From Saccharopolyspora sp. SCSIO 74807 (GTDB taxonomy: Bacteria > Actinomycetota > Actinomycetes > Mycobacteriales > Pseudonocardiaceae): 64,000 nt of DNA. Positions 7,231 through 11,338 of the stretch are shown here, one piece after another. The stretch spans positions 1,428,501 to 1,492,500 of the forward strand of contig NZ_CP146100.1 in NCBI RefSeq assembly GCF_037023755.1, given 5' to 3'. Within the stretch, counting starts at the first letter, position 1, and each line of letters begins with the position of its first letter. The position numbers and the translations under genes are program-made. The notes under the pieces were generated by a model. The model was not told the DNA's origin, ran no database searches, and was given only the letters and a program-made list of their open reading frames with translations.

Positions 7231-9075
7231 GTGAGCACCTATCCTGACGCGAAGATCCCGGAAGAGCTGTTCGACGACGCCGAGCTGGAGCGGCGCTGGC
7301 GGGCGCGGTTCAGCGCGCCGCGCGTGTCCCTGCCGGACTGGGCGCGCGACGCCCCGGCGCGCAGTCTGTACGTCTCCAACAGCAGCGGAACCTGGGAGCT
7401 CTACGCCTGGGACCGGGACTCCGGCGAACACCGGCAGGTCACCGACCGGCCGAACGGCACCTTCCACGGCACCTTGTCCTCGGACGGGACGCGGGTGTGG
7501 TGGTTCGACGACACCGACGGCGACGAGTTCGGCAAGTGGGTCAGCGAGGACTTCACCTACGGCGGCGAGAAGCCGGCCGAGGCGGTGCCGGGCACGCACG
7601 CCGGCTACCCGGCCGGGCTGGCGCTCGGGCCGACCGTGACCGGGATCGGGATGTCCACCGACGACGGCGTCACGATCTGGGTGTCGAAGCACGGCGCGAG
7701 CCCGGAAGTCGTCTACGAGCACGAGCAGGACGGCGGTCTTTCCGCGCTGTCCTGGGACGAGTCGCTGCTGGTGCTGTCGCACTCGGAACACGGCGACAGC
7801 AGGCACCCGGCGCTGCGGGTGCTGCGGGTGTCCGACGCGGCGACCGTCGCCGAGAAGTACGACGGGCCGGGCAAGGGCCTGGACGCGCTGGACTTCGCGC
7901 CGGTGAGCGGGGATCCGCGGCTGCTGGTGCTGCACGAGCGGCACGGCCGCGAAGAGCTGCTGATCTGGGACGTGCTCGCGGACACCGAGCAGGAGCTCGA
8001 CCTCGGACTGCCCGGTGAGGTCTCCGCGGACTGGTACCCGGACGGTTCGGCGCTGCTGATCGCGCACACCCATCGGGCGCGCACCACGATGCACCGCTAC
8101 GACCTGGCTTCTGGCGAGCTGACCGACCTGTCGACCCCGGCCGGGACGGTCGGCAACGCCTCGGTGCGACCGGACCGGTCGGTGGAGTACTCGTGGTCGT
8201 CGGCCGCGACGCCGGGGCTGGTGCGCACGCTGACCGCGGACGGCGAGGACCGCGTGCTGCTGACGCCTCCCGGGGAGCGGGCGCCCGGTTCGCAGCCGGT
8301 CGGCGACGTGTTCGTGGAAGTGCCGTACGGGCCGAACGAGACCGTGCACGCGCTGGTATCCCGCCCGGAAAACTCCGGGGACGAGCCGTTGCCCACGGTG
8401 TTCAACCTGCACGGTGGGCCGCACGCGGCCGACGAGGACCGGTTCTCGTCGTACCGGGCGGCGTGGCTGGACGCGGGCTTCGCCGTGGTGGAGATCAACT
8501 ACCGGGGTTCGACCGGTTACGGCTCGGCTTGGCGGGACGCCATCGAGGGGCGTCCGGGGCTGACCGAGCTGGCCGACGTCGCCAGGGTGCACGACTGGGC
8601 CGTCGCGGAAGGGCTCACCACGCCAGCGTTGAGCGTGGTCGCCGGAGCTTCGTGGGGCGGCTACCTGACGTTGCTGGCGCTGGGCACGCAACCGCAGCGG
8701 TGGGCGGGCGGCGTGGCCGGGGTGCCGGTGGCGGACTACGTCTCGGCCTACGCCGATGAGATGGAGCCGTTGCGCGCCTACGACCGCGCGTTGTTCGGCG
8801 GCTCGCCGGAGGACGTCCCCGCGGTGTACCGGGACTGCTCGCCGCTGACCTACGTCGACGAGGTCCGCGCGCCGGTGCTGGTGCTGGCCGGGGACAACGA
8901 TCCGCGCTGTCCGCTCCGGCAGATCCTGAACTACCTGGACCGGCTGTCCGCGCGGCAGGTGCCGTTCGAGTTCTACCGCTACGACGCCGGGCACGGTTCG
9001 CTGGTGGTGGCCGAGACGCTGCGCCAGGTTTCCGCGGAGATCCACTTCGCGCAGCGGGCCGTCGGGCTGGCTTGA
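7231..9075 (+). CDS. S9-family serine peptidase (prolyl oligopeptidase/acylaminoacyl peptidase type)
   Basis: Predicted cytosolic oligopeptidase of 614 residues without signal peptide. The N-terminal two thirds (about 40-360) form the beta-propeller that limits access to small peptides; the alpha/beta-hydrolase domain follows. The catalytic triad is visible: Ser474 in GASWGG, Asp557 in GDNDPRCP and His588 in AGHGS. An oxyanion-type NLHGGPHA motif and a NYRGSTGYG motif are typical of the family. The GTG start at 7231 has only a weak SD (GGTGGG). A second S9 peptidase lies at 46111; the two are clearly different subtypes. Confidence 0.9.
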   Translation: MSTYPDAKIPEELFDDAELERRWRARFSAPRVSLPDWARDAPARSLYVSNSSGTWELYAWDRDSGEHRQVTDRPNGTFHGTLSSDGTRVWWFDDTDGDEFGKWVSEDFTYGGEKPAEAVPGTHAGYPAGLALGPTVTGIGMSTDDGVTIWVSKHGASPEVVYEHEQDGGLSALSWDESLLVLSHSEHGDSRHPALRVLRVSDAATVAEKYDGPGKGLDALDFAPVSGDPRLLVLHERHGREELLIWDVLADTEQELDLGLPGEVSADWYPDGSALLIAHTHRARTTMHRYDLASGELTDLSTPAGTVGNASVRPDRSVEYSWSSAATPGLVRTLTADGEDRVLLTPPGERAPGSQPVGDVFVEVPYGPNETVHALVSRPENSGDEPLPTVFNLHGGPHAADEDRFSSYRAAWLDAGFAVVEINYRGSTGYGSAWRDAIEGRPGLTELADVARVHDWAVAEGLTTPALSVVAGASWGGYLTLLALGTQPQRWAGGVAGVPVADYVSAYADEMEPLRAYDRALFGGSPEDVPAVYRDCSPLTYVDEVRAPVLVLAGDNDPRCPLRQILNYLDRLSARQVPFEFYRYDAGHGSLVVAETLRQVSAEIHFAQRAVGLA

Positions 9076-9116: not shown

Positions 9117-10925
9117 TCACCGGTGCCGCGCGTGCAGCGGATCGGTGAGCCCCGCAGGCCACGGCGGGCGGAGCCGGACCGTGGAGGTGTCGTCGGGACC
9201 GGCAGCCGATGCCGTCGGCTCCTGCTGAACCGGCGCGTTCCCGGCAGCGTTCGTGCCTTGCCCGCGCAGCCGCACGATCCGGTCGGCCAGTTCGGCGAGA
9301 TCAGGATCGTGGCTGATCAGCAAGGTCGTGCGGGTGCGGGCGAGCCGGCGCAGCGGGGCGAGGACGTTGCGCTTGGACTCCTGGTCCAGTCCGTTGGTCG
9401 GTTCGTCCAACACCAGCACTGGAGCACGGCGCAGCACGGCGCGGGCGATGGCGATCCGTCTGCGCTGGCCGCCGGAAAGCAGCGCTCCGCGCTCCCCGAG
9501 CACCGTGTCGTAGCCGTCCGGCAAGGCGCGGACGAACTCGTCGGCGTCGGCTTCCTGAGCCGCTGCGACGACGTCGGCCCGAGACGCCCCTGGCGCGGCG
9601 AACGCGATGTTGTCCGCGACCGTTCCGTGCAGCACGTCGGCTTCCTGCGGCACGTAGGCGATCTGGTCGCGAACCTCGTGCAGCGGGAGCCGGGGCAATT
9701 CCACGCCGTCCAGCAGCACCCGGCCCGCGCCCGGGTCGTAGAACCGCAGCAGCAGCCTCGCCAGCGTCGATTTCCCGGCTCCGCTGGGGCCGGTGACCAG
9801 CACGAACTCTCCCGGCCGAACGTGCAGCCGGAAGTCGCGAAGCGCAGCCCGGCCCGCGCCCGGGTAGCCGAAACCGACCCGGTCGAACTCGATCGCCCGC
9901 CCCGCGGGGCGCCGCGGCGGCAACGACACGCCGCTGGGCGCGTCGGCCACCGCCGGTTGCGCGTCCATGAGCTCGATCAACCGCTCCGAACCGGCGCGCG
10001 CGGCGGTCACCGCCATGGTGATCCGGCCGAGGTCCTGCAGCGGCGGGTACAGGTAGCCGATGTAGGCGGCGAACGCCATCAGGCCGCCGATGCTGATGCG
10101 CTGCGCCGAGATCTCCCACACGCCGACGCCGATCACCAGCAGCACGCACCCCGTCTCGACCATCGTGACCAGCGGCGGGTACAGCGCGGACAGCCGCGCC
10201 TCGGTGATCTTCGCGCGGAACCAGCGCATCGAGGCGGCGTGCAGCTCGGCGGATTTGCGCGGCTGCTGGTTCGCGGCCTGCACCAGCTCGATGTGCCCGA
10301 GTCCTTCTTCGACGACCGTGCTCAGCTCGCCGTTGCCCGCCCGCTCGTCCCGCGACGCCGACCTGATCCGGTTCGCGAAGCTACGCGCCACCAGCCAGAA
10401 AACCGGCGCGAGCGCGAACGAAAGCAGCGCCAGGTCCCAGCGCAGGTACAGCGCGGCGCCCGCGTAGAGGACCACGCTGAACATCGCGGTGACGGTCTCG
10501 ACCATGCCGGATGCGACGAGCCGTTCCACCGCCTCCACGTCCCCGGAGAGCCGCGAGACCAGATCGCCCAGTTTGCTGCGCGCGAAGAAATCCGGGGAAA
10601 GCCGCTGCAAATGCGCGAAGACGTGCGCGCGCAACCGCACCAGGAAACGTTCGGCCGCCCGCGCGGAAAAGTAGGAGCCGCCGAAGGAGGCCGCTGCGCC
10701 GACCGCCGCGATCGCCAGCCAGGACAGGCCCGGCGCCCAGAACTCCGCCAACCTGCCGGTCGCCAGCGCGTCGTCGGTGATCAGCATGAACATCCAGATG
10801 CCCGCGGTGTCGGCCAGCGCGGAGATCACCAGCAGCACCGCAGCGACCAGCAGGCCACCGCGCTCCGGGCGCAGGAACGGCCGGAAGCGGGCGAAAACCT
10901 CGCGAATTCCCGGCGCAGCGCTCAT
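9117..10925 (-). CDS. ABC transporter, fused membrane and ATPase half-transporter (exporter type)
   Basis: Half-size ABC exporter of 602 residues, expected to dimerise in the plasma membrane. Residues 1-320 form the type-1 exporter membrane domain with about six hydrophobic helices; the ATPase follows. Walker A is GPSGAGKST near 375, the signature LSGGQRRRIAIARAV near 480 and Walker B VLVLDEPTNGL, with a later H-loop (LLISHDPDL). The ATG at 10925 has GGAAGG upstream. Upstream on the same strand are a strong hairpin (10946-10978) and a 30-codon proline-rich ORF with a perfect SD, which suggests either a peptide substrate or a regulatory leader. Substrate is otherwise unknown. Confidence 0.92.
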   Translation of the reverse strand: MSAAPGIREVFARFRPFLRPERGGLLVAAVLLVISALADTAGIWMFMLITDDALATGRLAEFWAPGLSWLAIAAVGAAASFGGSYFSARAAERFLVRLRAHVFAHLQRLSPDFFARSKLGDLVSRLSGDVEAVERLVASGMVETVTAMFSVVLYAGAALYLRWDLALLSFALAPVFWLVARSFANRIRSASRDERAGNGELSTVVEEGLGHIELVQAANQQPRKSAELHAASMRWFRAKITEARLSALYPPLVTMVETGCVLLVIGVGVWEISAQRISIGGLMAFAAYIGYLYPPLQDLGRITMAVTAARAGSERLIELMDAQPAVADAPSGVSLPPRRPAGRAIEFDRVGFGYPGAGRAALRDFRLHVRPGEFVLVTGPSGAGKSTLARLLLRFYDPGAGRVLLDGVELPRLPLHEVRDQIAYVPQEADVLHGTVADNIAFAAPGASRADVVAAAQEADADEFVRALPDGYDTVLGERGALLSGGQRRRIAIARAVLRRAPVLVLDEPTNGLDQESKRNVLAPLRRLARTRTTLLISHDPDLAELADRIVRLRGQGTNAAGNAPVQQEPTASAAGPDDTSTVRLRPPWPAGLTDPLHARHR

Positions 10926-10945
10926 CTCGGTCCTTCCCGCTGCCC

Positions 10946-10978
10946 CGGCGGGCCGGTGCTGAACCGACCGGCCCGCCG
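10946..10978 (-). promoter_or_regulatory. 12-bp hairpin between the proline-rich ORF and the ABC exporter (possible attenuator)
   Basis: CGGCGGGCCGGT (10946-10957) pairs perfectly with ACCGGCCCGCCG (10967-10978); the loop is nine bases. On the minus strand it begins nine bases after the small ORF's stop and ends 20 bases before the exporter ATG. It lacks a U tract, so it may be an attenuator, a processing site or a partial terminator. Confidence 0.65.
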
Positions 10979-10987
10979 AGGATCAAC

Positions 10988-11080
10988 TCACTTGTGCGGC
11001 GGCCGGCCCGGCTCCGGCTTCGGGGGCTTCGGCGGCTTGGGCGGGCGCGGCTTGCCTGGGACCGGAACGGGGAAACCCAT
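10988..11080 (-). CDS. Small proline-rich peptide (30 residues), possible exporter substrate or leader peptide
   Basis: Short ORF read directly from the sequence: ATG at 11080, TGA at 10990-10988. Its SD is ideal, AGGAGG (plus-strand CCTCCT at 11087-11092) six bases before ATG. The peptide starts MGFPVPVPGKPRPP, continues with a K-P-P repeat (KPPKPPKPEPG) and ends RPPHK: 14 Pro, five Lys, two Arg and one His among 30 residues, with no Cys, Ser or Thr. It has no signal peptide and no known RiPP leader motif. Such Pro-Pro clusters are known to stall ribosomes without EF-P. The ABC exporter follows on the same strand. Real translation is likely; the role is open (secreted cationic peptide or attenuating leader). 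Confidence 0.7.
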   Translation of the reverse strand: MGFPVPVPGKPRPPKPPKPPKPEPGRPPHK

Positions 11081-11338
11081 TTGCGACCTCCTGGTCGAAT
11101 CGAATCACATTTCGCCGGGCCGTTTCGGCGCCGACTGGAATCAACCTACCGAGCATTTCGGAACGGATTCGACGGAAAATATCCGGAAATCCGCTGGGAA
11201 GCTCCTGGACGAATTCCCGCGTCCGGCCGGGCTGCCGATTTCCCAGCGGGCGCACACCGTTCTACGAGGAAGTTCCCAGCCGCTGTGAGCTGCCGTACAA
11301 CAGGAATAAACCCCTGCGCAGCCGGGTTGTTGCGAAAT

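Follow-up and report, generated by a model that had tools for sequence, protein, structure and literature searches.

A selected proline-rich peptide gene, a hairpin and a half-size ABC exporter in Saccharopolyspora: apparently one branch of a widespread family of putative secreted peptides

The peptide gene, hairpin and exporter in the window

In this work, a stretch of 64,000 nucleotides from Saccharopolyspora sp. SCSIO 74807 (the window) was analysed around a short open reading frame (ORF) on the minus strand. The Shine-Dalgarno sequence AGGAGG (11087..11092) is followed after six bases by the ATG at 11080, and the 30 codons end with the TGA at 10990-10988. The ORF (10988..11080) encodes the 30-residue peptide MGFPVPVPGKPRPPKPPKPPKPEPGRPPHK and was assigned from the ORF listing, homologues in the genus and selection. 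A preliminary description of this DNA had already given the ORF with its ideal Shine-Dalgarno sequence, and its coordinates and details were correct. The composition of the peptide fits that of a Pro-rich cationic linear peptide. No Pfam or NCBIfam match to it was found, and its two further matches in its own genome are both weak (E 0.05 and 0.24). An Rfam scan of the window returned five tRNAs and the SRP RNA only, leaving the leader without a match. A weak putative promoter block, GTCGAAT ... TAGGTT (11143..11173, minus strand), was noticed by eye in the alignment of four same-genus genomes; a sigma-70 scan gave no promoter at the leader, and a terminator scan likewise gave nothing there. 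Inverted copies CTGGGAA/TTCCCAG lie 5' of the peptide gene (11194-11246) and occur in genus relatives as well, and they are possibly a regulator site.

A GC-rich hairpin (10943..10981, minus strand) lies between the peptide stop and the exporter. Its perfect 12-bp core stem, CGGCGGGCCGGT/ACCGGCCCGCCG, which was among the features described earlier, begins nine bases past the stop; with flanking and G-U pairs the stem has 15 pairs around a loop of 9 and covers 10981-10943. The 90 nt past the stop are unusually structured (z -2.3, 60 shuffles), whereas the leader as a whole is not (z -0.56). No intrinsic-terminator T-tract follows the stem. The hairpin lies wholly past the stop and ends 17 nt before the exporter ATG, and it leaves the exporter Shine-Dalgarno sequence uncovered. 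The exporter itself (9117..10925, minus strand, 602 aa) starts at 10925 and, as had been proposed, is a half-size ABCB-like protein with one membrane domain fused to one nucleotide-binding domain. Its two defining matches, ABC_membrane (PF00664) and ABC_tran (PF00005), are above the Pfam cut-off, and the exporter alignment holds the Walker A (GPSGAGKS), signature (LSGGQ) and Walker B (LDEPT) motifs. The nearest solved half-size chains are Sav1866 and MsbA. In NCBIfam, the protein fell under the cut-off of each of the best 25 of 196 families. Pfam gave no C39 peptidase match in it, which rules out a peptidase-containing bacteriocin exporter (PCAT).

The ORF and the hairpin were found before the exporter in all four other genomes of the genus that were compared. 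Each of these relatives has, in that order, AGGAGGT (present in 5/5 members with the window species), a peptide of 28-30 aa beginning MGFP(I/V)PVPGK, a post-stop hairpin in equal position and of different sequence, and an exporter 78-81% identical to that of the window. The N-terminus MGFP(I/V)PVPGK is the conserved part of the peptide in the five genomes. The K-P-P repeat emphasised in the preliminary description is present in the window species but private to it among these genomes. The synonymous and non-synonymous changes in the five-genome group (pS 0.32, pN 0.15, omega 0.38) indicate purifying selection on the ORF, and in the first 12 codons pN is 0.03 against a pS of 0.35. At the level of sequence, this comparison shows the window ORF to be a selected gene.

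The gene order of the window cassette is common to a second genus. A gene for an S9 peptidase (7231-9075) is convergent with the cassette, and most loci of the MGFP type have such a gene of the prolyl-oligopeptidase family within 400 nt of the exporter. As a maturation enzyme of the proline-rich branch it was rejected, because an orthologue is present in 22/22 genomes with or without this cassette type; the gene order around it is common to the two genera, and its adjacency is probably housekeeping synteny. The window genome holds a second cassette (G000:C1:5652757-5654400; L031, L299) with a paralogous exporter (45% identical), a Trp-rich peptide of GWGWG repeats (MSNVKSVFVYINNRRR...), a 16-pair hairpin and, downstream of the exporter, a gene for a flavin oxidoreductase.

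The peptide family and its exporter clade

On the exporter tree, the exporters form one clade of 155 members (support 0.97) with 0/21 outgroup half-exporters inside; L238 was left out because of its interrupted frame. Exporters of this clade (E 1e-90) occur in 78/390 genomes of the taxonomic family of the window species, and in 17/397, 26/394 and 20/396 genomes from overlapping draws at the order, class and phylum level, respectively. A scan of genome contigs gave at least 80 loci among the matches listed, mostly unrelated exporters; five of them were inspected upstream, and a cassette was present at three (L144 in Nonomuraea, L145 in Pseudonocardia and L150 in Streptomyces).

A short, compositionally biased ORF lies upstream of 149/156 clade exporters. 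This number includes 143 found at the first pass and six recognised on a second look as in-frame segments, three of which are cut by contig ends. No peptide was found at the other seven (L089, with 211 nt available, L097, L131, L229, L231, L250 and L257). About 12 listed clade matches stand outside the 156, ten from the family-level search and two from the wider draws, as does L135, the second exporter of a tandem pair, which lacks its own peptide; L039 stands in for L003, and the repeats L226 and L233-L235 were not recounted. Peptides were chosen by eye from the listed ORFs, except in tests by a fixed rule (ATG, Shine-Dalgarno match of at least 5 bases, 22-80 aa, within 450 nt). The rule found an ORF upstream of 91/150 clade exporters in the sense direction against 5/150 in the antisense direction, and upstream of 0/21 outgroup half-exporters. 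At fourteen loci fetched later from other families of the phylum it found 7/14 and 0/14, respectively. By eye, a peptide was seen at 11 of these fourteen, typically of the type MAxFSxxxPA, Ser/Thr, poly-Arg, and two of the three loci where none was found are partial exporter matches. The draft contigs of L067, L073, L093, L090, L113 and L130 end near the cassette; perhaps the peptide repeats break assemblies, and the family may be under-counted.

The 150 unique peptides have 25-74 residues (median 44) and a median net charge of +6. Net positive charge is present in 130 of them and absent in 20, so one cationic role cannot cover all. The commonest residue pairs in the tails are Gly/Trp (26), Pro/Arg (15), Asp/Arg (15) and Lys/Pro (12), followed by Gly/Arg (9), His/Arg (9), Gly/Tyr (7) and Arg/Ser (7). 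His/Cys-rich peptides (MGFFLLDGCAPPKHKHHHHKSCHCHECKP...CCDD) with the look of metal binders occur at L092, L096, L108, L114, L080 and L101. A strongly hydrophobic stretch of 12 residues was found in only 1/150, and therefore no Sec signal or anchor is evident. Phe occurs at positions 3-8 in 107/150 peptides against a mean of 29 in shuffles, a post hoc count like the other N-terminal motif counts. Omega was below 1 in 14/15 peptide groups tested, with weak or no purifying selection in three (0.76, 0.76 and 1.0), and in 13/15 the first 12 codons had a lower pN than the remainder, the N-terminus being no more conserved in the other two. The double-glycine (GG) motif is absent from the window peptide, which excludes it as a GG-leader bacteriocin precursor, and a regular expression for this leader matched 3/150 unique peptides; neither a protease domain nor a GG leader was found that would account for maturation. 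None of 8 family peptides scanned matched Pfam, and none of 11, including that of the window, matched NCBIfam. Peptides of one type cluster together on the exporter tree, and comparison of the sequences shows that the peptide class tracks the exporter subclade.

The hairpin recurs widely in the family, in a comparison that is partly selected, since the visual choice of a peptide was sometimes made with its hairpin also visible. In 119/143 cassettes, the 90 nt that follow the stop codon of the peptide gene gave z below -2 (median z -3.3), against 14/142 equal upstream stretches used as control. Stems with 7 or more pairs occur in 121/143 cassettes (median 15 pairs, median start 18 nt past the stop). 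Four or more T residues within 8 nt after the stem were seen in 11/121, so most of these hairpins are not classical intrinsic terminators. As far as such comparison goes, the order of peptide gene, hairpin and exporter is shown to be conserved across the family.

Tail composition and neighbouring enzyme genes

In 136 cassettes at least 1 kb is known behind the exporter. A co-directional protein-kinase gene was found in 27 of them and a flavin-oxidoreductase gene in 29 (15 convergent, 14 co-directional), while 80 have neither and none has both. In 26 loci the kinase match starts 45-387 nt past the exporter match, and in two it starts 755-836 nt past it, the total of 28 including L261, whose 42-bit match was counted as kinase-bearing here and not in the composition tests (27). 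The flavin match starts 116-375 nt past the exporter match, except at one locus (1703). Three kinases scanned belong to PF00069 and three flavin proteins to FAD_binding_3. By eye, the catalytic Lys, Asp and Asn are kept in most kinases, with L227 as an exception. A second kinase-like gene lies upstream on the opposite strand at L103, L112, L117, L120 and L121.

The tail, taken as residue 13 onward, differs in composition with these genes. Median Ser+Thr is 0.21 with the kinase and 0.03 without it, and median Trp is 0.28 (range 0.17-0.42) with the flavin gene and 0.00 without it. In regressions on the exporter tree, the slope of Ser+Thr on the kinase was 0.21 (p 9e-13), that of Trp on the flavin gene 0.21 (p 3e-20, or 2.5e-12 with full phylogenetic weight), and that of Asp+Glu on the kinase -0.15 (p 2e-5). 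The kinase state changes at least six times on the tree, and its link to composition is retained in comparisons between exporter clusters (34-77 clusters, p 4e-5 or less). Most Trp/Gly tails belong to a single part of the tree, and therefore the independent events behind the flavin link are fewer than 29. There are exceptions: the kinase-free L224, L225 and L065 have tail Ser+Thr of 0.20-0.32, and tail Trp is 0.15-0.22 at L117, L237 and L242, where there is no flavin gene and the tails are Arg-rich and not Trp/Gly repeats. Of the later-fetched loci, 13 have sequence available behind the exporter, and a kinase gene is present there in 12. Ten of the eleven later peptides have a kinase and Ser+Thr of 0.17-0.25; the kinase-less L293 has 0.03 and is the least typical peptide call, from a genome that is 77% complete. 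The downstream sequence of six Trp-rich cassettes, including the second cassette of the window genome (G000:C1:5652757) and its four genus counterparts, was fetched after the flavin link had been seen, and a co-directional flavin gene was present in 6/6. Comparison shows that tail composition, as predicted from the genes, matches the neighbouring enzyme gene in two other branches.

Behind the exporter of the window cassette there is neither a kinase nor a flavin gene; the RiPP-like arrangement of a precursor adjoining a modifying enzyme is found in those other branches. Among the 80 cassettes that lack both genes, the downstream stretch offers no additional recurrent tailoring candidate, and what recurs is mostly local synteny. 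A first clustering of neighbours covered 76 long loci and gave 11 clusters, ten representatives of which were scanned with Pfam; besides the kinase and flavin genes, none of the recurrent neighbours viewed resembles a classical RiPP enzyme. A protein at L129 (1096-2508, plus strand), with homologues at L103, L112, L120 and L135, lies near several cassettes of the FTGLAPAWGG type and gave a WXG100-like match under the threshold (26.1 bits, cut-off 27).

Interpretation and comparison with known systems

We consider it likely that the window cassette encodes a small Pro-rich peptide exported by the ABC exporter just behind it. This is the simplest reading because selection acts on the tiny ORF, all the exporters come from a single clade, the peptide type follows the exporter tree and the tails fit a neighbouring enzyme in two branches. 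One transcript would cover the peptide gene and the exporter, and the ORF would be translated into a cationic, probably disordered peptide. The window hairpin may act as a partial terminator or 3'-end stabiliser, ending or stabilising many transcripts so that peptide output would exceed exporter output. Recognition probably depends on the short, conserved N-terminus, and the tail, which changes fast, would be the effector part and, in other branches, the substrate modified by the adjoining tailoring enzyme.

The preliminary description offered two readings, and it is this one, in which the hairpin sets the ratio of peptide to exporter, that the comparison supports. Its other reading was a sensing leader, in which ribosomes stalled by Pro clusters would alter hairpin folding and exporter expression. 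In the form considered here, Pro clusters or an antibiotic would cause the stall and the refolded hairpin would turn exporter expression on, which is the way bmrB controls bmrCD. The order of short ORF, hairpin and ABC exporter is indeed identical, and bmrB, with about 53 codons, is likewise an ORF before an exporter, but its terminator lies inside bmrB (PMC4191407), while the window hairpin lies past the stop and off the exporter Shine-Dalgarno sequence. The Pro-Pro motif is not conserved in the genus (counts of 4, 1, 1, 1 and 0 in the five genomes) and occurs in 31/150 unique family peptides; seven loci carry two diverged peptides, the tails of other branches are unrelated in composition, and tail composition tracks the tailoring enzymes. 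Pairing of the ORF with the left arm of the hairpin, the region covered by the antiterminator search, was no better than when the codons were permuted (mean z 0.02, n=121; 7% below -1.64), which speaks against a leader attenuator of the bmrB type. Export is favoured because Pro-Pro is unconserved in the genus and no antiterminator pairing was found, and we regard the sensing leader as very improbable. Hardly more probable is a peptide that is not exported but serves, within the cell or its membrane, as a small exporter partner or inhibitor. Its tight linkage to the exporter, their parallel divergence and the lack of an evident signal peptide would suit such a role, but the tails alter beyond recognition between subclades and their composition tracks an enzyme gene, and the strong Shine-Dalgarno sequence and hairpin suggest a mass product. 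Many ORFs are expected by chance at high GC; nevertheless, conservation refutes a chance ORF, selection, the hairpin test, the rule-based tests and the later loci are all against it, and its probability is negligible.

If the peptide is exported, its role is less certain. As a first guess, we give an antagonistic, bacteriocin- or PrAMP-like peptide somewhat less than an even chance, as against surface or matrix roles. A structural sub-case, in which sticky disordered peptides form an extracellular coat or coacervate and are not weapons, is possible but rather unlikely. Trp/Gly, Tyr/Gly, Arg/Asp and Arg/Ser compositions are like those of phase-separating sequences, and these are among the tail classes; moreover, acidic residues fall where a kinase and Ser/Thr are present, as if charge were balanced. 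On the other hand, the patchy distribution in the taxonomic family and the Pro/Lys and poly-Arg tails are more weapon-like.

The window cassette seems to belong, as one branch, to a widespread and apparently undescribed peptide family whose members would be secreted. We hypothesize, at even odds for the proposal as a whole, a large, undescribed class of actinobacterial ribosomal peptides that carry low-complexity tails on a short conserved N-terminus and are secreted by a single exporter clade. The residue repeated in the tail would be what the adjacent enzyme acts on, namely Ser/Thr in the case of a soluble protein kinase (mass phosphorylation) and Trp in that of a flavin oxidoreductase; the proline-rich branch that includes the window would have no such enzyme. 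A partial literature search, with the flavin link outside its scope, returned nothing recognised as the peptide family, its tail diversity or the enzyme links, and the absence of the family from print is weakly supported. If the proposal is right, the small size of the peptides, their repeats and their lack of mutual likeness have kept a reservoir of secreted peptides across actinobacteria from notice. The N-terminus, hairpin and exporter clade would find members whatever the tail, and the matches of composition and enzyme give sharp predictions for mass spectrometry, one of them in the second cassette of the window genome.

Proline-rich antimicrobial peptides such as Bac7, apidaecin and drosocin are of animal origin and have a ribosomal target; the likeness to these short cationic, Pro/Arg/Lys-rich linear peptides is one of composition alone. 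Flavin-dependent tailoring of tryptophan is known in RiPPs, for example by tryptophan halogenases, and a flavin enzyme beside a Trp-containing precursor is common to both systems. However, the genes here are FAD_binding_3, and Trp_halogenase matches one of three, under the cut-off. In phosphorylated lasso peptides, the kinases PadeK and PsmK act on Ser of the precursor (PMC9266682). A tailoring-kinase gene, a predicted role in this family, together with Ser in the precursor is shared with them, while three kinases scanned here match PF00069, the tails have many Ser/Thr, no lasso genes recur and the window cassette is kinase-free. In Bacillus subtilis, the terminator inside bmrB is accompanied by an antiterminator and two exporter genes, bmrC and bmrD, follow (PMC4191407). 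A short ORF and a terminator-like hairpin before ABC exporter genes are common to both, and the window differs by a hairpin past the stop, by the lack of an alternative pairing in the search made and by an ORF selected as protein.

Precursors of bacteriocins and RiPPs that have an ABC exporter of their own are tiny, with a conserved N-terminus, a variable tail and sometimes a tailoring enzyme. The family is like them in anatomy, in patchy distribution and in the several copies of some genomes, and it differs in that most of its peptides are without a GG leader and the window exporter is without C39. A precursor peptide with an ABC exporter, sometimes with a tailoring enzyme, is an arrangement already known.
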